NCBI GenBank assembly: GCA_018818235.1
Contig: JAHISE010000036.1
Coordinates: 1 to 33,568 of the forward strand
DNA length: 33,568 nucleotides
Direction: 5' to 3'
Source of the DNA: Patescibacteria group bacterium
GTDB lineage: Bacteria; Patescibacteriota; Gracilibacteria; Peribacterales; Peribacteraceae
Positions within the stretch are counted from its first letter, which is position 1. Each line of letters starts with the position of its first letter. Under the pieces are notes generated by a model. That model was not told the origin of the DNA. It saw only the letters and a list, made by a program, of their open reading frames with translations, and searched no databases. The position numbers were made by a program, and so were the translations under genes. This document shows, piece by piece, positions 1,811-32,902 of the stretch.

Positions 1811-1853
1811 AATAAACGAGTAAACGAGATAACGAGCTAACGAATAAACGATT
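1811..1853. repeat. Octamer array (aaacgagt)n overlapping the stop codon of the O-antigen ligase-like gene
   Basis: aaacgagt aaacgaga taacgagc taacgaat aaacgatt. Confidence 0.8.
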
Positions 1854-3864
1854 ACCAAAGGTACCCCGGCGCCCTCCCCTTTATCTTCTCCCTCTCCACC
1901 TGAGAATGATGATCCGCACGGGCAGCAAGAACCTCATATAAAGGCTTTTCTCTGTTCGGTAACGTATTTACATACATATTGGCAAGAGCAATTACTTCCT
2001 CAGCATTAGGAGAAAGAGCTATAAAATGGGTATTATGCTCAATGGCATCTACAAACTTTTCGAGATCTTCAGTTACCTGAGACCTCATATCTTTGACGTC
2101 ATTCCACTGTCCGGCTGCCATCATTAACTTAACTTTGGCCCGCATAATGCCAAAGTCATTATATTTACCTCCCAGATCATATGCCTTTTCATATGCATCA
2201 AGAGCACCTTTTGCGTCCAGATCTGACCTTAATGTATCACCTAGCAGCTTATATCCCCTGAAGTCCTCAGCATTCTCCTCCATATAATCCTCAACAGCAC
2301 TTTTTGCTTCTGTGTAGCGCTTTAGTTCGTACAATATTTTTGCACAACTAAGGTGCATATCACGACTGAATATTTGCGGCATCGCATAGTCATACCAAAC
2401 CAATGCTCTCTCCCCTTCTCCTGCAGCCTCCAGATGTCTTCCAACCGAAGAAAGCAGTATACCTCTGGCTTCTGTTATTGCCACTATCAGTAAGATTGTG
2501 GCTAGCCCTACCTCAATAAACCGTACTATTTTGTTGTTCAACTTCGGCATTTTTCCCCACTTAATTTCCGGAACCAAAAGAGAGAGCATTACCCAAAACA
2601 TCAAGCTTACAGATACAAATTGCAGATTATAGTCGATAAGGCTGTGTGCCATAAGACCTGCAATTCCAAGAACAATAAACATTGATTTATCATTCAAGCC
2701 TCCGATTATGGACTTAACAAGTATCACTGTAATTATTACAAGCAAAAGAATTGCAGCTATCCATCCCCTCTCTGATGCCATCTTCAGAAAGAAATTATGC
2801 GGATGATCCGAAGTTGCGAGCACAGCATTTTGAAGACGAGGCTGCACAAACCTGAAGCTATACGGTCCCCAACCAAGCAAAGGCTTTTGAACCGAAAGAA
2901 CCCATGCCTGATTCCAGAATGAGGATCGCTCTGATACTGATGATGCTCCTTCGTCCGCTGTGAATGTTGCTTTTTGTGATATCGATTGAACCGGAAATAG
3001 TTGAGATCTGATCAGATTAGAACTGGAAAATAACAGACCTGATACAACAAATACAATTCCGATTTTTACCAGAACATTTTTGTAAGGAAAAACATCCTTC
3101 TTCCAATATTTATTAAACACAATAACCGCCCACAGAATTAATTGACCGACAAATGAAATCAAAGCACCTCGCGAAAAGCTCAGATACAGGAATCCGACAA
3201 ATAAACCAACAACCAGAAACCTAAGAATCATATTCTGCAATCGCTTTTCTTTGAGTGCCCATAACATTACGAGTGGCCACGTTACAAGAAGTAAATCCGC
3301 CCATGCATTGGGCCAGTAATCGGTATGAAATCTGTAATCGAAGAAAGTGCCGACAAATCTGTTTACCGGCTGAAAAATGTAAACAAAAAGTCCGATTATT
3401 CCTGCAATTAGCATAGTAACCACTACAACATTAACCAATCGATTAAACCAATCTGCCCCACTCCCATTCCGGATCACCCAGAAAAATATAAGAGCCAACG
3501 AACCTGTCCTCAGGACTTCATCCAATCCATAGTTAGCAGTTGAAGAATTTAAGAAGCTGGCAATTGTTAAAAATACAAACAAAACAATTCCTATCCATAA
3601 ATAAGAAGGCACTGATTCTTCATCCGGCTTCTTTTTCCAGTAAACAAACGTTAGCATCCATGCCAGTAACGTGAGCAACCAAGTAGTTTCCAGCCCCTTA
3701 CCTCCTTTCCATAAGATTGCAAAAACAAGGAACCACGGGATGCTCTTGAAGCATAATTCAGGCCAAGGTAGTGCAATGAACTTCTTGTACTTATTCAACC
3801 ACCAAGTTCTTTTAAGAAAATACTTCATGCGGTGCATTATTGCATAAATCAGCTTAAATAGCAC
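1852..3864 (-). CDS. O-antigen ligase/polymerase-like (Wzy_C) membrane protein with C-terminal TPR-like region
   Basis: Multiple TM segments; motif PLLGWGPYSFRFVQPRL...SDHPHNFFLKMASERGWIA typical of the Wzy_C/WaaL superfamily; C-terminal helical repeats. Confidence 0.82.
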   Translation of the reverse strand: MLFKLIYAIMHRMKYFLKRTWWLNKYKKFIALPWPELCFKSIPWFLVFAILWKGGKGLETTWLLTLLAWMLTFVYWKKKPDEESVPSYLWIGIVLFVFLTIASFLNSSTANYGLDEVLRTGSLALIFFWVIRNGSGADWFNRLVNVVVVTMLIAGIIGLFVYIFQPVNRFVGTFFDYRFHTDYWPNAWADLLLVTWPLVMLWALKEKRLQNMILRFLVVGLFVGFLYLSFSRGALISFVGQLILWAVIVFNKYWKKDVFPYKNVLVKIGIVFVVSGLLFSSSNLIRSQLFPVQSISQKATFTADEGASSVSERSSFWNQAWVLSVQKPLLGWGPYSFRFVQPRLQNAVLATSDHPHNFFLKMASERGWIAAILLLVIITVILVKSIIGGLNDKSMFIVLGIAGLMAHSLIDYNLQFVSVSLMFWVMLSLLVPEIKWGKMPKLNNKIVRFIEVGLATILLIVAITEARGILLSSVGRHLEAAGEGERALVWYDYAMPQIFSRDMHLSCAKILYELKRYTEAKSAVEDYMEENAEDFRGYKLLGDTLRSDLDAKGALDAYEKAYDLGGKYNDFGIMRAKVKLMMAAGQWNDVKDMRSQVTEDLEKFVDAIEHNTHFIALSPNAEEVIALANMYVNTLPNREKPLYEVLAARADHHSQVEREKIKGRAPGYLW

Positions 3865-7049: not shown

Positions 7050-7379
7050 ATGACCGACATCCCCGAACTAGCCGTAAAAATTGAACCGTTAGGCGACCGC
7101 GTGGTAGTTATGCCACTCGAAAAAGAAGATGTTACAGCTTCCGGAATAGTAATTCCGGATACAGCCAACAAGGAAAAACCATCCGAAGGCATTGTAATCG
7201 CTATCGGTAAAGGAGGAGTTGGAAAAGACTGCTCTGATCCTTCCGCATTCCTTAAAATCGGTGACAAAGTCCTGTTTGGCAAATATGCCGGCGATGATGT
7301 GAAGCTTAAGGACAAGGAGGGCAAAGAAGTCGAAGTCAAAGTACTACACTTAGAATCCGTCCTTGGAAAAGTGGTATGA
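7050..7379 (+). CDS. groES: Co-chaperonin GroES
   Basis: MTDIPELAVKIEPLGDRVVVMPLEKEDVTASGIVIPDTA...KVLFGKYAGDDVK; start placed at 7050 rather than the 6999 ORF start, which lies in the repeat array. Confidence 0.95.
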   Translation: MTDIPELAVKIEPLGDRVVVMPLEKEDVTASGIVIPDTANKEKPSEGIVIAIGKGGVGKDCSDPSAFLKIGDKVLFGKYAGDDVKLKDKEGKEVEVKVLHLESVLGKVV

Positions 7380-7397
7380 CAATTGACAATTGACATT
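7377..7397. repeat. Heptamer array (tgacaat)n beginning at the groES stop codon
   Basis: tgacaat tgacaat tgacatt; first TGA is the groES stop. Confidence 0.85.
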
Positions 7398-7450
7398 CAG
7401 CTTTCCCAACTTTCCCAACCTAATTTAAAACTATTTCCCCCTTATAAACC

Positions 7451-9085: not shown

Positions 9086-9139
9086 GGGACATGCAATAAT
9101 AAGGAATTGTATGCTGCAATGAATTAGATCAACAAACTG

Positions 9140-9192
9140 TCGCTGGTCACTGGTCACTGGTCAAATAGTGAAAGACAAGTGACCAGTGACAC
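9140..9192. repeat. Inverted pair of heptamer arrays downstream of groEL
   Basis: tcgctgg tcactgg tcactgg tca... facing ...tgaccag tgacac; GTCACTGGTCA/TGACCAGTGAC are complementary. Confidence 0.85.
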
Positions 9193-15466: not shown

Positions 15467-16978
15467 ATGTGTGGAGTAATTGCTGTCTCAGCCTACCGCA
15501 ATGTTATTCAAGATCTTTATGACGGTCTGATAATGCTACAACACAGAGGACAAGATGCAGCAGGTATAATAACTTATAATTCCCAGTTCCATCTTAAAAA
15601 AGCAAACGGGATGGTACGCGACGTTTTTCATGCAAAATCTATTGGAAGGTTAACCGGAACGGTGGGAATAGGACATGTCCGATATCCTACAGCGGGATGT
15701 TCCAGTGAGTTTGAGGCACAGCCCTTCTTCGTATCAACACCATTCGGAATTGCACTGGCACATAACGGCAACCTAACAAACACCGATGAACTCAGGAAAA
15801 AACTTATAGAAAAGGAATACCGCCATCTTAATACCAACTCAGATTCGGAAGTTCTGCTAAATATTTTTTCAGTGGCACTAAGAAACCAGAAACCTAAAGG
15901 AAAACTGAGTCCTGATCACGTGTTCGGTGCAATAAGCTCGGTTTTTAGGCAATGCAAAGGCGCATATTCCAGTGTCGCTCTGATCGGAGGTCAGGGAATT
16001 GTGGGATTCAGAGACCCACATGGAATCAGACCTTTGCAATTGGGTAGACGTAAATTCGGAATGAAGGAGGAATATATTATTGCATCCGAAAATACCGCAT
16101 TCAAAGCACTTGATTTTGAATTTATAAGGGACGTCAACCCTGGAGAGGCAATATTCATTGATACAAAGAATAAACTGCACACAAAACAAATTGTTAAGGG
16201 CGAACTTAACCCTTGTATATTCGAATGGGTGTATCTGGCAGCTCCGGATTCGACCCTTGACGGAGTGAATGTATATAAAGCACGAGTTAGAATGGGAGAA
16301 TATCTTGCTGAGAAAATTAAAAAAGCAAATATAAAAATCGATACAGTTATACCTGTTCCGGACACAGGCAGACCAATAGCCGCCGGACTCGCCGATAAAC
16401 TAAAGATACGTTATCGCGAAGGACTGATTAAAAACAGATATATTACACGCACATTTATAATGCCAGGGCAGGAAGTTCGTAAACGCAATCTTCACTTTAA
16501 GCTTCATCCGATTGAACTTGAATTCAAAAACAAAAGAGTTTTGCTGGTTGATGACTCTATTGTACGTGGAAATACAAGTAAAAAAATTGTTGAGCTTGTT
16601 CGCCAAGCCGGAGCAAAGAAAGTGTATTTCGCATCGGCAGCAGCTCCTATTGTATGTCCAGATCCTTATGGCATAGATCTGCCCACCAAAACTGAATTGA
16701 TAGCAGCAAACTACACAGTTGAAGAGATCAGGAAACATATTGGAGCTGACGGTTTGTTCTACGGATCAGTTGAAGATCTTGAAAAATCAATCAAGTATGG
16801 TAATAACAATATTAAAGAATTTTCAGAAGGATGCTTTACCTGCAAGTATCCCACTCCTGAAGTTTCACTTAAAAAACTGCAAGCAATGGGAGTAAAAAGA
16901 AATCGCACACGTGATTCGTATGAATTCGAATCATTTGATGAGGATGAGGACTCAACTAAAACGATGACTTTGGTTTGA
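15467..16978 (+). CDS. purF: Amidophosphoribosyltransferase
   Basis: MCGVIAV N-terminal Cys nucleophile; VPDTGRPIAAGLA; RVLLVDDSIVRGNTSKKIV PRPP motif. Confidence 0.97.
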   Translation: MCGVIAVSAYRNVIQDLYDGLIMLQHRGQDAAGIITYNSQFHLKKANGMVRDVFHAKSIGRLTGTVGIGHVRYPTAGCSSEFEAQPFFVSTPFGIALAHNGNLTNTDELRKKLIEKEYRHLNTNSDSEVLLNIFSVALRNQKPKGKLSPDHVFGAISSVFRQCKGAYSSVALIGGQGIVGFRDPHGIRPLQLGRRKFGMKEEYIIASENTAFKALDFEFIRDVNPGEAIFIDTKNKLHTKQIVKGELNPCIFEWVYLAAPDSTLDGVNVYKARVRMGEYLAEKIKKANIKIDTVIPVPDTGRPIAAGLADKLKIRYREGLIKNRYITRTFIMPGQEVRKRNLHFKLHPIELEFKNKRVLLVDDSIVRGNTSKKIVELVRQAGAKKVYFASAAAPIVCPDPYGIDLPTKTELIAANYTVEEIRKHIGADGLFYGSVEDLEKSIKYGNNNIKEFSEGCFTCKYPTPEVSLKKLQAMGVKRNRTRDSYEFESFDEDEDSTKTMTLV

Positions 16979-17010
16979 CAATCGACATTCGACAATCGAC
17001 AATCGACATA
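16976..17010. repeat. Heptamer array forming the whole purF-purD spacer
   Basis: tgacaat cgacatt cgacaat cgacaat cgacata; TGA is the purF stop and the last base is the A of the purD ATG. Confidence 0.9.
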
Positions 17011-18335
17011 TGAAAGTATTATTAATATCATCGTCAGCGAGGGGACATGCGATCGCTGATGCATTTGCCAGAAGCCCACAAAAGCCTGATTTGATATCCA
17101 TTTGCTCATCTAATAATCCTGGTATTAAGAAACTTTCATCAAGATTTGATGTTGGAGACATAATGGATTTTGGTTTTATTGCTTCTATTGCAAAAGAGAC
17201 TAAGCCTGATTTTGCCTTTATAGGACCGGAAGATCCTATGGGAGCAGGACTTGCTGATGTTCTGGAGGAAATAAATATTCCAACAGTCGCACCAAAAAAA
17301 TCCCTAGCCAGAATAGAATCATCAAAAGGATTTACCCGTGATCTGCTTGATAAACATGACATAAAAGCTAATCCTAAATTCAAAGTCTTTGGCTCTACTG
17401 AGAGCTCTGCTATGTACACTTTTATTGATCAAGAATTGAGAGGAGAATTCGTAATCAAATACGACGCACTTAAAGGAGGTAAAGGAGTAAAAGTAAGTGG
17501 CGAACACGTTCACTCAATCGAAGAAGGAGTTGAGTATGCTCAAAGATGTATAGAAGAATGCGGCAAAGTTGTAATAGAAGAAAAACTTGTAGGTCAGGAA
17601 TTCAGCTTACTTAGTTTTACATCAGGAATAACTACAATTAACATGCCTGCTGTTCAGGACCATAAGAGAGCATTCGAAGGTGATACGGGACCAAATACGG
17701 GTGGAATGGGAACTTATAGTGACACAAATCATTCACTCCCCTTCCTGACCGAAAATGACATCAAAAGAGCAAGTGAAATCAACGCACTAACAGCCAAAGC
17801 TCTTCAAGAAGAATGTGGTGAACCATATAAGGGAATATTATATGGTGGATTTATAGCAGTGAAAGACGGTGTAAGAGTTATTGAATATAACTCCAGATTT
17901 GGTGATCCGGAAGCATTGAATATTCTTCCGTTACTGAGATCCGACTTTGTAGATATTTGCAAAGGAATAATCACAGAGTCACTTGATCAAAGTATGGTCA
18001 CATTCGAAAATAAAGCTACCGTATGCAAGTACATAACACCGGAAGGTTACCCTATCAACAAAGACCAACAAGGTGAGATAGTATCATTTCCAGAAATTTC
18101 CGAAGATGCTCGAATTTTCTATGGAGATATATCTGAAGATGACGATGGAACCTTGCACTTAGGAGGCTCCAGAACAGCTGGAATAGTTGGTATAGGAGAT
18201 AGTATAGAAGAAGCAGAAGCAATTGCTCAAAAGCTATGCGAAGAAGTCCGTGGTCCGGTTAGATATAGAAAAGATATAGGAACATCTGAAATAGTATTAA
18301 AACGTATTGAGATGTTAGATGAACTGAGAAAATAA
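17010..18335 (+). CDS. purD: Phosphoribosylamine--glycine ligase
   Basis: MKVLLISSSARGHAIADAFARSP; AVQDHKRAFEGDTGPNTGGMGTYS; EYNSRFGDPEALNILPLL. Confidence 0.94.
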   Translation: MKVLLISSSARGHAIADAFARSPQKPDLISICSSNNPGIKKLSSRFDVGDIMDFGFIASIAKETKPDFAFIGPEDPMGAGLADVLEEINIPTVAPKKSLARIESSKGFTRDLLDKHDIKANPKFKVFGSTESSAMYTFIDQELRGEFVIKYDALKGGKGVKVSGEHVHSIEEGVEYAQRCIEECGKVVIEEKLVGQEFSLLSFTSGITTINMPAVQDHKRAFEGDTGPNTGGMGTYSDTNHSLPFLTENDIKRASEINALTAKALQEECGEPYKGILYGGFIAVKDGVRVIEYNSRFGDPEALNILPLLRSDFVDICKGIITESLDQSMVTFENKATVCKYITPEGYPINKDQQGEIVSFPEISEDARIFYGDISEDDDGTLHLGGSRTAGIVGIGDSIEEAEAIAQKLCEEVRGPVRYRKDIGTSEIVLKRIEMLDELRK

Positions 18336-21710: not shown

Positions 21711-22814
21711 ATGAAGATACTAATTGCCATGTCCGGCGGCATCGACTCATCTGTAATAGCATACCTACTTAAAGAGCAAGGCCATAAACTCGTAGGCGTC
21801 AGGTTTCTACTTTGGAATGATCCACTGGCTCCGGCCGAAGCACAGATACTTTCCAATAAATGTTGTGATGCACAAAGTGCTGCACGCGCCAAACATATAT
21901 CCGAAGAACTCGACTTTCCACTACACACAATCGATCTTTCCGAAAAGTTTAAACGCGAAGTTGTGGATTACTATCTGGAAGGATGTAAAAAAGGAATCAC
22001 TCCAAACCCATGTGTTGTTTGTAATAAAGTTGTGAGATTCGAAGCGCTGCTTGATCTACTGGAAGACTTTGATTGCGAGAAACTTGCAACAGGTCATTTC
22101 GCACGTATCGAAGAGAGACCTGACTACTTTGCATTGTTACAAGGAGTTGACGAAGAAAAAGATCAAAGTTATTTCCTTTACCGCCTGACTCAAGAACACT
22201 TGAGCAAACTAATATTTCCACTGGGTGAAACTAAGAAGAGTGAAGTTTATGAACTTGCAAAGAAATTTAATATTCCACTCAACGCAGAGCGTTACCGAGA
22301 AAGTCAGAACCTGTGCTTTTTCCCCGAAAAGGAACCGACTGAATTCTTAAAAAGATACTTAGATGATTCAATGAAAGAAGGAGAGATCGTCAAACGTGAC
22401 GGAACAAAAGTCGGAACTCATAAAGGACTCCCCCTCTATACAATCGGTCAAAGAAGAATTGGAGTTGGAGGTTTGGCCTCTCCACTGGAAGTCGTGGAAA
22501 AAGATATTGAAGGAAACAGATTGATTGTAGATGATCAAAATACTGAGTTTGTGAATAAAGTTTGTGTTCGGGATTTATCCTTTATTAATGCGGTTCCTGA
22601 CGATAATAAACCTATAACATGTGAGTGTATGACAAGGTCACTATCTAAGAAGAAAGCAGGGAGATTTTTATTTAATGGAGGTAAAGGAGATAAAGGAGTC
22701 AAAAGAGAAAAAGGAGAATTTATATTCTCAGAGCCTCAATCGCCACAGGCTGAAGGGCAATCATTGGTGTTATATGAAGGGAATGAGGTAATTGGGGGAG
22801 GGATAATTGTCTGA
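21711..22814 (+). CDS. mnmA: tRNA-specific 2-thiouridylase
   Basis: MKILIAMSGGIDSSVIAYLLKEQGH; GITPNPCVVCNKVVRF; LATGHFARIE; DQSYFLYRLTQEHL. Start 21711 preferred over 21663. Confidence 0.95.
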   Translation: MKILIAMSGGIDSSVIAYLLKEQGHKLVGVRFLLWNDPLAPAEAQILSNKCCDAQSAARAKHISEELDFPLHTIDLSEKFKREVVDYYLEGCKKGITPNPCVVCNKVVRFEALLDLLEDFDCEKLATGHFARIEERPDYFALLQGVDEEKDQSYFLYRLTQEHLSKLIFPLGETKKSEVYELAKKFNIPLNAERYRESQNLCFFPEKEPTEFLKRYLDDSMKEGEIVKRDGTKVGTHKGLPLYTIGQRRIGVGGLASPLEVVEKDIEGNRLIVDDQNTEFVNKVCVRDLSFINAVPDDNKPITCECMTRSLSKKKAGRFLFNGGKGDKGVKREKGEFIFSEPQSPQAEGQSLVLYEGNEVIGGGIIV

Positions 22815-22915
22815 ACCTAGATTTTCATGATTTAGGGATTACCTTGATTATTAACCTGATTTTGCATTTGCATAATCATGAAAATCCAATAATCAGGTGA
22901 ATCATGGTTCAGACA
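22808..22915. repeat. Imperfect long inverted repeat, mnmA stop inside left arm
   Basis: TGTCTGAACC...GGTTCAGACA termini; internal GATTTTCATGAT / ATCATGAAAATC. Confidence 0.8.
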
Positions 22916-24351: not shown

Positions 24352-24576
24352 CCAAGATCCCGACTTACCAAAAAAGGACAGGCAACCATTCCCGCAGAAA
24401 TACGTGCTTTTTTGGATGTAGATTCAGGAGATATGATCTCTTTTTCGGTCGAAGATGATTCAGTCGTAATAAGTAAAATGAATGAAGCAGAAGACGAATA
24501 TCTTAGATCTGTAGAAAGCTCACTTGCAAGCGAATGGCTGTCTCAAGAAGATTCCAATGCTTACGATGATTTGTAA
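24349..24576 (+). CDS. AbrB/MazE-type antitoxin
   Basis: MPRSRLTKKGQATIPAEIRAFLDVDSGDMISFSVEDDSVVISKM. Confidence 0.85.
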   Translation: MPRSRLTKKGQATIPAEIRAFLDVDSGDMISFSVEDDSVVISKMNEAEDEYLRSVESSLASEWLSQEDSNAYDDL

Positions 24577-24910
24577 TTCAGGTACAATCGTTATTGTCCC
24601 TTTTCCTTTTGTGGACGCGCCGCAAACAAAGCGACGCCCTGCGCTGGTTCTTTCAGGACATTCTTTCAATAAAGAACATAAAAACACATTGCTGGCCATG
24701 ATAACAACAGGAGGGAATAAACCATGGAAAAGTGACATTTGCATTTCTGATTGCAAAGAACAAGGGCTCTACCCTAAATCCGTTATTCGAATGAAGATTT
24801 TTACATTGGATAATCGTTTTATCCTCAAACGCATTGGTGATGCAAACAGTAAAGACTGGGGGAAAGTGAAGGACGTTATACTTAGAGAGGTATTAGAAAT
24901 TGAGAATTGA
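24566..24910 (+). CDS. MazF/PemK-like toxin
   Basis: GTIVIVPFPFVDAPQTKRRPALVLSGHSFNKE...LLAMITTGG...SVIRMKIFTLDNRFILKRIG; starts at 24557 or 24566, overlapping the antitoxin. Confidence 0.85.
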   Translation: MICNSGTIVIVPFPFVDAPQTKRRPALVLSGHSFNKEHKNTLLAMITTGGNKPWKSDICISDCKEQGLYPKSVIRMKIFTLDNRFILKRIGDANSKDWGKVKDVILREVLEIEN

Positions 24911-24996
24911 GAATAATTTTTGATTTTTATTGGTGTTGATGATGTTTCTGGTTATATCTTATAATGGTGAATTTGTTATGAATCTGAACTGTTCAA

Positions 24997-25583: not shown

Positions 25584-25667
25584 GCCTACGCGTAGCGTAG
25601 GCTGTCGAGCGTAGCCTCCTGAACTCATTTGTATAATTTTCAACAGAGTCGCTACGGCTACGGCTGG

Positions 25668-25761
25668 CAGGCCACGTCACTCGTGAGTGACCGTGGCAGG
25701 CCACGTCACTCGTGAGTGACCGTGGCAGGCCACGTCACTCGTGAGTGACCGTGGCAGGCCA
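25668..25761. repeat. 29-bp palindromic tandem repeat, 3.2 identical copies
   Basis: CAGGCCACGTCACTCGTGAGTGACCGTGG x3 plus CAGGCCA; each unit folds GCCACG-TCACT/AGTGA-CGTGGC. Confidence 0.95.
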
Positions 25762-29346: not shown

Positions 29347-32300
29347 ATGACATCAAAGATAACGCAGGGAACCTCCAAATCCGCCCAGGCGGAGGAAGGG
29401 GGTCTTTTTTTTAAATCCGCAAAAGATAAGACTATTTTACTTCTTGGCTCAGGAGCTCTGAAAATAGGAGAAGCGGGCGAATTCGATTATTCCGGAAGCC
29501 AAGCAATAAAAGCTTTTAAGGAAGAAGGCGCACGAGTAGTACTTGTTAACCCGAATATCGCAACCAACCAAACCAGCTGGAATGTCGCAGATACTGTGTA
29601 TTTCCTTCCTGTTAACCCTCAATTCGTCAAGAGAGTGATAGAGAAGGAGAAACCGGATGTAATATCGCTGAGTTTCGGAGGACAGACCGCACTTAATTGT
29701 GGACTTGAGCTTAATGATTCGGAAATTCTGAAAAAAAATGGAATTGCAGTACTGGGAACTCCGGTAGAAAGTATCAGAAATACGGAAGATCGAGCCTTGT
29801 TTAATGCACAATTAAAAAGTATCGATGTTAATGTTCCCGCATCCCATGCCTGCGAAGATATAAGCGAAGCATTCAAAGCCGCAGAAGACATCGGATTTCC
29901 CGTAATTGTTAGAGGAGCATTCGCGCTTGGAGGAAAGGGCAGCGGAAGAGCCAATGATGAAAGTGAGTTGAAAGAAGTGTGCAAAGTTGCTTTTGTTGAA
30001 TCACCTCAGATATTGGTCGAAGAAGACTTGACCGGATGGAAGGAAATTGAATATGAAGTGGTACGTGACAGAGCAGACAACTGTATTACGGTTTGTAATA
30101 TGGAAAACATAGATCCGCTCGGAATACATACGGGTGAATCAATTGTCATAGCTCCAAGCCAGACCTTGGATAATACCGATTACCAAATGCTCAGATCAAT
30201 TTCGCTTAAGGTGATCCGGCATCTTGGAATTATTGGGGAGTGCAACATACAGTTCGCACTCGATCCTGATTCGCGAGATTACCGTGTTATAGAAGTGAAT
30301 GCTCGTCTAAGCAGAAGTTCCGCATTGGCATCCAAAGCTACCGGCTACCCACTGGCATTTATTGCAGCAAAGCTTTCCATGGACTACACCCTTCCAGAAT
30401 TATCAAATGCAATAACTCATGTAACCTGTGCGGACTTTGAACCGTCACTAGATTACGTCGCCATAAAAATGCCCCGATGGGATATGCAGAAATTCAGAAT
30501 GGTTTCCAATCAGGTTACAAGTGAAATGAAATCTGTCGGTGAAGTTATGGCACTTGGTAAAACATTCGAAGAAGCAATGCAAAAAGCGATTCGAATGCTT
30601 AATATTGGTGCAGAAGGTCTTTTCCCAACTCCATTTGAATTTAATAATCTGGGAGAAGAAGCAATACTGCCAACTCCCAGACGCATATTTGCAATTGCAG
30701 AAGCACTCAAGGGAAAAATTGAGATGCATGAAATTCACGAAAAAACCAAAATGGATATGTGGTTTCTGGAACGTATTCGCTCATGCGCACTGATAGCAGA
30801 ACGACTCAAAAAGAATAGCTTACCTTCACCCGAACTTCTGAAAGAAGCCAAGCGTTCAGGATTTTCCGATAGATCTATCGCAATGATTTCGGAATCTGAT
30901 GCCGAAATTATCCGCAAGAAACGCATTGAAAATAATATCACTCCAGTAATTAAGCAGGTTGATACGTTGGCTGGGGAGTTTCCCGCACAGACGAATTATC
31001 TTTATATGACGTATCATGGAACTGAGCACGATATAATTATTAAGAACACGGATGGGTCACTAGTCACTAGTCACTCGTCACTCGTCGAGGGTCCAGTGAC
31101 CAGTGACCAGCGACTAGCGACCCCCAACTCAACCAATCAACATAGAATTATCGTCCTCGGCGGCGGACCCTACTCCATCGGCTCCTCAGTTGAATTCGAC
31201 TGGTGTTGTGTACAGGCAGTTCATGAACTGCAGAAAAATGATTTCGAAGTTGCGATGATTAATAGTAATCCCGAAACCGTAAGTACGGATTACGATGAAT
31301 GTGATCTGCTCTTCTTTGAAGAGCTTTCCGAAGAACGTGTTCGAGATATCGCAGATCTTATTAACCCATATGGAATTGTTGTTTCTATGGGAGGACAAAT
31401 TCCAAATTCACTTGCTCCAAAAATACACAAGGCTGGACTACCAATTTTAGGAACCGCACCCGAAGATATAGATCGGGCGGAAGATCGACATAAATTCAGC
31501 ACCCTTCTGGATGAACTTAAGATTGATCAACCGGAATGGAAAGAATTTTCGGACATCAAATCTGCAAAAGATTTTGCACAAAAAGTGGCATATCCCGTAA
31601 TTGTCAGACCAAGTTATGTGCTTTCGGGTGCTTCTATGGCTGTGGTTCACTCCGATGATGATTTGGAAGATTACGTTGGCGGATCAGCTTTTGTAAATAA
31701 AGAAGCTCCTATTGTGGTTTCCAAATTCGAGATTGGTGCAAAAGAAATTGAATTTGATGGAGTTGCTCAAGACGGAAAATTACTTTTATATGCGATTTCG
31801 GAACATATCGAGAATGCCGGAGTACATTCCGGTGACGCCACCATTGTTCTTCCTCCTCAAAGAGTTAATCTGGAAACATTGCGTCGCGTTAAAAGCATAG
31901 CCAAACATATTGCAAAGGGATTGAATATTTCCGGACCATTTAACATTCAACTTCTTGCAAGAAGTAACAAATTGAAGGTAATTGAATGTAATCTGCGTGC
32001 AAGCAGAAGCTTCCCATTTGCAAGTAAAGTTACGGGAGAAAACTTTATTACACTCGCAACTCAGGCTTTACTGCACAAAGCTCCACCAGACAAAAGATAT
32101 CAAACCGTAGATCTGGATCATGTGGGAGTTAAGGCTGCACAATTCAGTTTTAATAGACTAAAGGGTGCAGACCCACGTCTTGGAGTAGAAATGGCAAGTA
32201 CGGGTGAAGTGGCTTGTTTTGGTAACAACGCGGAAGAAGCATTGCTTACGGCATTGATAGCAATTGGATTTAAAATTCCAAAGAAAAACATTTTGGTAAC

Positions 32301-32697
32301 TGTAGGACGACTGGAAGAGAAGATTGACCTCTTTCCGGAAATTAAAAATATGCATAAGAGAGGCTACGCATTTTATGCAACCAAAAATACTCACTCATTC
32401 CTTGAATCACGCGGTGTACCATCGGTTTTGTTGCATAAAGTATCCGAACCACGAAGCCCGAATATAAAAGAATATCTGGAAAAAAAGCGCATCGATCTGG
32501 TAATAAACATCCCGACTCATTCAAGCAGTGATGAGCAGACAGACGGATATTATATTCGCCGTATATCCATTGATCACGGGATTCCTCTTATAACCAATGT
32601 TCAACTGGCAAAAAGAATCATCGAATCAATAATACAAATTGAAGATATAGATAATATGCCATTGATTGGATGGCCGGAAGTGGTGGGACGTCGATGA
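29347..32697 (+). CDS. carB: Carbamoyl-phosphate synthase large subunit
   Basis: LLLGSGALKIGEAGEFDYSGSQAIKAF; NMENIDPLGIHTGESIVIAPSQTL; second half IIVLGGGPYSIGSSVEFDWCCVQAVHEL; repeat-derived insert between the halves. Confidence 0.96.
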   Translation: MTSKITQGTSKSAQAEEGGLFFKSAKDKTILLLGSGALKIGEAGEFDYSGSQAIKAFKEEGARVVLVNPNIATNQTSWNVADTVYFLPVNPQFVKRVIEKEKPDVISLSFGGQTALNCGLELNDSEILKKNGIAVLGTPVESIRNTEDRALFNAQLKSIDVNVPASHACEDISEAFKAAEDIGFPVIVRGAFALGGKGSGRANDESELKEVCKVAFVESPQILVEEDLTGWKEIEYEVVRDRADNCITVCNMENIDPLGIHTGESIVIAPSQTLDNTDYQMLRSISLKVIRHLGIIGECNIQFALDPDSRDYRVIEVNARLSRSSALASKATGYPLAFIAAKLSMDYTLPELSNAITHVTCADFEPSLDYVAIKMPRWDMQKFRMVSNQVTSEMKSVGEVMALGKTFEEAMQKAIRMLNIGAEGLFPTPFEFNNLGEEAILPTPRRIFAIAEALKGKIEMHEIHEKTKMDMWFLERIRSCALIAERLKKNSLPSPELLKEAKRSGFSDRSIAMISESDAEIIRKKRIENNITPVIKQVDTLAGEFPAQTNYLYMTYHGTEHDIIIKNTDGSLVTSHSSLVEGPVTSDQRLATPNSTNQHRIIVLGGGPYSIGSSVEFDWCCVQAVHELQKNDFEVAMINSNPETVSTDYDECDLLFFEELSEERVRDIADLINPYGIVVSMGGQIPNSLAPKIHKAGLPILGTAPEDIDRAEDRHKFSTLLDELKIDQPEWKEFSDIKSAKDFAQKVAYPVIVRPSYVLSGASMAVVHSDDDLEDYVGGSAFVNKEAPIVVSKFEIGAKEIEFDGVAQDGKLLLYAISEHIENAGVHSGDATIVLPPQRVNLETLRRVKSIAKHIAKGLNISGPFNIQLLARSNKLKVIECNLRASRSFPFASKVTGENFITLATQALLHKAPPDKRYQTVDLDHVGVKAAQFSFNRLKGADPRLGVEMASTGEVACFGNNAEEALLTALIAIGFKIPKKNILVTVGRLEEKIDLFPEIKNMHKRGYAFYATKNTHSFLESRGVPSVLLHKVSEPRSPNIKEYLEKKRIDLVINIPTHSSSDEQTDGYYIRRISIDHGIPLITNVQLAKRIIESIIQIEDIDNMPLIGWPEVVGRR
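31054..31123. repeat. Inverted heptamer array pair inside the carB reading frame
   Basis: tcactag tcactag tcactcg tcactcg ... tgaccag tgaccag cgactag cgac; arms complementary over about 30 bp with mismatches. Confidence 0.92.
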
Positions 32698-32743: not shown

Positions 32744-32818
32744 GTCACTAGTCGCTGGTCACTAGTCGCTGGTCAGAACACACATGGGACTAGTGACTAG
32801 TGACCAGTGACAAGCGAC
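32744..32818. repeat. Inverted heptamer array pair between carB and greA
   Basis: tcactag tcgctgg tcactag tcgctgg tca ... gactag tgactag tgaccag tgacaag cgac. Confidence 0.9.
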
Positions 32819-32902
32819 TATAAACTTCTTCAAATAATATCCCTCATCTTATTGCTTTGCTGACAAAAACAACTTAGAATCCCCCCACATTCCCCTTTTA
32901 CT

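Follow-up and report, generated by a model that had tools for sequence, protein, structure and literature searches.

Repeat arrays and genes of the window

The stretch of DNA analyzed here (33,568 nucleotides, hereafter the window) is one contig of a Peribacteraceae genome of 1.58 Mb in 164 contigs. The relatives of its PurF and the identities of contigs assign it to Candidatus Peribacteraceae: every 50-mer sampled from the congener G003 was also present in a contig of Ca. Peribacter sp. UBA2144, and the congener G001 matched JAHIYH010000018. A preliminary description had listed five genes whose ends lie inside repeat units. The first, groES (Cpn10; 7050–7379, plus strand), encodes the C-terminus LESVLGKVV, which is conserved in congeners, and is followed on the same strand by the heptamer array TGACAATTGACAATTGACA (7377–7395). 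The first triplet of this array is the groES stop codon, and the array starts exactly there, as described. The groES–groEL spacer also carries a 9-nt array, (CTTTCCCAA)2, at 7401–7419 on the plus strand, which is unrelated to the heptamer array.

Two further examples were borne out. The Wzy_C O-antigen ligase-like gene (1852–3828, minus strand, stop codon at 1852–1854) is abutted by an imperfect octamer array (TCGTTTAY; 1811–1851, minus strand) directly past its stop, and the PemK/MazF-like gene (24524–24910, plus strand) ends in an AATTGAG array (24898–24914, plus strand) that encodes its final codons and its stop, the latter sitting in the second unit. The purF example held in part. This gene (15467–16978, plus strand), whose C-terminus TMTLV is conserved in Peribacteraceae, has an array abutting its stop codon (16976–16978), and this array (16977–17008, plus strand) occupies the entire 31-nt purF–purD spacer. 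However, the gene end reads TGA-CAATCGACATTCGACAATCGACAATCGACA, in which TGACAAT is the first copy only, while the repeated unit CGACAAT contains no stop and provides no later stop in any frame.

The fifth example is of another kind. The TGTCTGAACC at the mnmA stop codon (22812–22814) is not a tandem unit but a terminal inverted repeat of a palindromic, MITE-like element of 108 nt (22808–22915; fold z = −4.8), whose left terminal repeat provides the mnmA stop codon. The sequence TGTCTGAAC had 39 matches in 630 kb, part of them chance matches within genes, and several occurred as facing pairs ~100 nt apart, so that the mnmA element has the dispersed, multi-copy terminal inverted repeats of a MITE. 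The TGA of the element was the exact stop of a gene at three places. The window also contains a perfect 29-nt tandem repeat of 3.3 copies (TGGCAGGCCACGTCACTCGTGAGTGACCG; 25665–25761). A search of the window against Rfam matched two tRNAs and nothing else.

Abundance and placement of the arrays

Arrays were tabulated in the window and 60 further contig stretches of the same genome (630 kb in total), and the pooled tests used three congeneric genomes, with 325 kb and 248 kb added from two of them. Gene calling relied on a hexamer-based caller made in-house, which gave 502 genes and a coding fraction of 77%; its stops are reliable and its starts less so (the purD start was called at 17163, while 17010 fits the Pfam domain). 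The 630-kb sample was partly chosen for TGACAAT-like hits, and the tests were rerun leaving out the window and the contigs chosen in this way.

In the 630 kb there were 140 exact period-7 arrays with a length of 17 nt or more, compared to ~1 expected in order-2 Markov sequence, and exact arrays of periods 8 and 9 numbered 39 and 18, respectively. The sample contained 45 distinct heptamer units, of which AATCCGG, ACCAGTG, and AAATCCC were the commonest and most were not G-rich. Although 77% of the sequence codes, 79% of the period-7 arrays were located outside genes. The autocorrelation of intergenic sequence was maximal at lag 7 in the three sampled genomes of the genus, and was weak or absent in the other sampled genera.

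The edges of the arrays were not randomly placed relative to stop codons; random placement would have spoken against the preliminary description. In the three congeneric genomes, 22 array edges were within 3 nt of a stop codon, where 9.3 would be expected if arrays were placed uniformly in the same gaps. The excess persisted when the window was left out (20 vs 8.9, P = 0.0005), and when the hit-chosen contigs were left out as well (16 vs 7.3). Arrays that straddled a stop codon numbered 30, while a single array straddled a start codon, and replacing the called starts with the furthest ATG added no further start-straddling array. Array edges on the start side were depleted between −20 and +10 nt (11 vs 27 expected) and at 4–10 nt (2 vs 7.8 expected), with a slight pile-up at 0–3 nt from starts (8 vs 4.6). 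The claim that arrays repeatedly begin at or contain the upstream stop codon was therefore correct in that this occurs more often than under uniform placement, but the stop-straddling arrays made up only ~10% of all arrays. In the 630-kb sample, 42 of 186 arrays lay wholly within called genes, and most of the others were away from stops. The association between stops and arrays is genuine but modest, and most arrays are elsewhere.

A preference for TGA was considered and rejected: the stop codons overlapped by arrays in the 630-kb sample (seven TGA, seven TAA, and one TAG) did not differ in composition from those of the genome (P = 0.26 for TGA).

Between congeners, the units of the arrays were replaced. 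In four congeners, the groES–groEL spacer contained period-7 arrays of other units (ACTTTTA, CATTTTT, and TTTTCAA types), and the groES stop codon was TAA, compared to TGA in the window. At other orthologous spacers, the two genomes compared likewise each had arrays, or palindromes made of arrays, with unit families that were often different. In two genomes of the same class (G034 and G036), GroEL reads through 48 and 11 TGA codons, which is consistent with TGA recoding among relatives of this TGA-as-stop lineage.

Origin of the association with stop codons

We consider it probable, at roughly 0.7, that the arrays are born by slippage and that selection on the coding end determines where their edges lie, so that a role in termination is unnecessary. 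Replication slippage would create and turn over repeats with a period of 7 nt, and in some cases of 8 or 9 nt, and purifying selection would determine where arrays survive. A heptamer duplication within a gene would cause a frameshift and usually be lost, and a duplication across the start codon, or in the bases just 5' of it, would harm initiation. The protein would stay intact if the duplication took in the stop codon or fell 3' of it. Since duplications on the stop side would be harmless, arrays would extend through spacers as far as the coding boundary and accumulate at stops, and where the stop codon falls within a unit the array would seem to start with it. The slight pile-up of array edges at starts and the completely filled purF–purD spacer are the picture expected of a boundary set by coding constraint. 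The preliminary description had proposed that arrays are tolerated at gene ends, which agrees with the gathering of edges at stops, the near absence of arrays across starts, and the unaltered proteins.

The permissive background for slippage may include the absence of the repair genes MutS and SbcD, neither of which was found in the lineage: MutS domain V had no match in 15 of 15 family genomes tested, and SbcD had none in 24 of 24 genomes tested. Their loss was rejected as the cause of array richness, as both are also lacking from genera of the family that are poor in arrays, and their absence fails to explain why this genus is array-rich.

Plain tolerance does not account for all of the observations. 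A coding-avoidance null, with the tolerated interval built in, removed about half of the stop-edge excess; under this null, which permitted 3 nt of overlap with the stop and required 10 nt of clearance from the start, a stop excess was left over (20 vs 14, P = 0.04). Moreover, arrays of the TGACAAT family, which was picked post hoc, lay no more than 3 nt from a stop for 10 of the 17 in the sense orientation and for none of the 10 in the antisense orientation (P = 0.003), and this sense-only occurrence is not predicted by plain tolerance. It may reflect seeding by the stop codon, in which a stop-bearing heptamer such as TGACAAT favors slippage, the first unit being ancestral and the later units copies. 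Such seeding would fit alongside slippage with selection on the coding end and would cover the leftover excess. The stop was in register with the array as its first unit at several genes, groES and purF among them, where TGACAAT or TAACAAT was followed by CGACAAT or CAACAAT. The stop was in register with at most one mismatch in 11 of 25 arrays, compared to 15.5% in shifted register, a comparison that is partly circular where the array call includes the stop. However, for arrays that started 1–4 nt past the stop, the stop was mostly out of register, with 2–3 mismatches, and we regard seeding as a tentative addition that is somewhat less probable than its absence.

Mosaics like ACAATCGACAATCGACACGCTNCGC were observed past stops at L009 11999, L054 19063, L063 13413, and L211 4755 and 10628, which suggests a dispersed repeat ending in a TGACAAT-type array.

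Hairpins in the 3' untranslated region, acting through REP-like protection, ribosome stalling, or termination, could also underlie the stop association. Within 100 nt, an inverted partner was present for 92 of 170 intergenic arrays, compared to 330 of 2669 (12%) array-free intergenic pieces, and palindromic arrays were denser between convergent genes than between divergent genes (0.93 vs 0.38 per kb, P = 0.017). Strong stems were predicted within the window for the GTCACTG heptamers and their inverse at 9139–9190, in the convergent gap that follows groEL (fold z = −6.1), and for the GTCACTA/GTCGCTG heptamers and their inverse at 32744–32820, downstream of carB (z = −8.7). Palindromes were also retained in orthologous spacers despite the change of units. 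On the other hand, the groES and purF arrays folded poorly against shuffles, unlike these two stems; the RNA fold of the groES array was no better than that of its shuffles (z = 0.73). As read by eye, the T-run of an intrinsic terminator (a U-tract in the transcript) was as a rule missing past the listed palindromes. The stop-edge excess was equally strong in arrays with and without an inverted partner, indicating that palindromes do not account for it. We thus find it doubtful that hairpins explain the stop association. At L005 4577–4650 and L008 1193–1298, array palindromes occupy convergent spacers nearly from stop to stop.

Palindromes were found within genes too, which also counts against hairpins as the basis of the stop association. 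One lies inside carB (29347–32697) at 31056–31121 on the plus strand, where it is read in frame (z = −5.2). This region, of about 27 residues (approximately residues 566–592), was missing in several relatives, whose alignments break at residues 565 and 593, indicating that the palindrome is absent there; the carB of the congener G001 has a comparable stretch. Other in-gene heptamer palindromes were located at L008 10150–10253, L063 6555–6620, and L016 1774–1831, and such elements are reminiscent of the Rickettsia palindromic elements. At L009 10303–10333, the middle copies carry GGA and only the outer copies carry TGA, so no in-frame stop arises.

A related reading is that spacers of this genus are selected for a 3' palindrome with arms made of 7- to 9-nt arrays, in which the unit sequence is freely replaceable; we think this unlikely. 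It would have slippage and template switching rebuild both arms, with the arrays at stops being one-armed or decaying members, and to this part we likewise give only a small chance. We found no exact precedent for a selected structure with little constraint on its sequence in the same orthologous spacer.

That the arrays are frame-independent translation stoppers maintained by selection, as the preliminary description had suggested, is very improbable. Its arithmetic was right: a single TGA that recurs at 7-nt intervals reaches all three frames, and the TGA units of the groES array do so. All three frames were also closed sooner after array-ended genes than after other genes (61 vs 88 nt, P = 0.003), a result that is at least partly built in because the selected arrays include the stop as a repeated unit. 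However, of the 28 heptamer arrays lying no more than 3 nt from a stop, 10, the purF array among them, had no further sense stop downstream (14 in antisense), and all three frames were closed in 8 of 28 in sense and 6 of 28 in antisense. The stop content of the arrays is similar on both strands. Nor was the next in-frame stop closer, with a median distance of 24 nt compared to 27 nt in other genes (P about 0.7).

Least credible of all is that array birth trimmed or rewrote C-termini: although arrays enter some genes by 5–20 nt and encode the last residues (the PemK-like gene ends in EIEN and a gene of G001 in TTVNS), the proteins for which a full-length orthologue was available were within a few residues of its length, several being identical in length. 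GroES, PurF, the sortase, and MnmA ended at the same residue as their orthologues or within 1–2 residues. GroES ended at an identical position in LGKVV here and in G003 and G004 and in LGKVA in G001 and G002, PurF ended in MTLV or a near variant across the family, and the lengths of MnmA and its orthologue were one residue apart. Where arrays reached 5–20 nt into genes with full-length orthologues, the tail was altered by 0–6 residues.

For one bacterium, these observations map where selection lets short tandem repeats persist (permitted up to the stop codon, kept clear of starts, and tolerated in some genes), and they remove the tempting story of a built-in stop signal. With palindromic arrays, fast replacement of units, and MutS and SbcD not found, this genus is a natural system for studying slippage and hairpins in small genomes.

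Comparison with known repeat systems

Our literature search found no description of repeats in Peribacteria. Heptamer arrays near or over stop codons have already been published for other bacteria. By the account given in PMC4679880, Mrazek et al. (2007) reported 7 nt as the commonest long repeat unit in most genomes and proposed slippage. With tandem units far above chance, the arrays described here probably belong among such long simple sequence repeats, in the class of 5–11 nt, which is a general statistical class with nothing specific to stops.

The TAACTGA direct repeats of Beggiatoaceae, Cyanobacteria, and Bacteroidetes are intergenic, and 13 sets of them overlap the upstream stop; forward repeats carry stops in all three frames and are hence confined to the ends of open reading frames (PMC4679880). 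They consist of one dominant unit that lies mainly just 5' of start codons, whereas the arrays described here have other units and tend to shun those bases, the start-side edges being depleted. REPs and other extragenic palindromes lie soon after stops and have conserved motifs in common (PMC12306157). The palindromes described here are like REPs in lying shortly past stops, but their arms consist of tandem arrays whose sequence changes, varying among loci and congeners, with no shared conserved motif.

The GGGAATC and GGGGA(C/T)T heptamers of Xanthomonas and Nostoc are dispersed and intergenic, at mean distances of 28 nt from the upstream gene and 160 nt from the downstream gene; some overlap the stop, inverted pairs are frequent in Xanthomonas, and convergent gaps are favored over divergent ones (PMC4692102). 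Shared spacers with variable arrays have also been reported between two species (PMC4692102). We found no earlier description of a comparable diversity of units or of their replacement within conserved spacers. The arrays described here resemble the Xanthomonas and Nostoc repeats in lying near the upstream stop and in forming inverted pairs. They differ in that those genomes each have one G-rich unit type, while here, in place of a single G-rich, G-quadruplex-capable unit, there are 45 units whose families are replaced between congeners.
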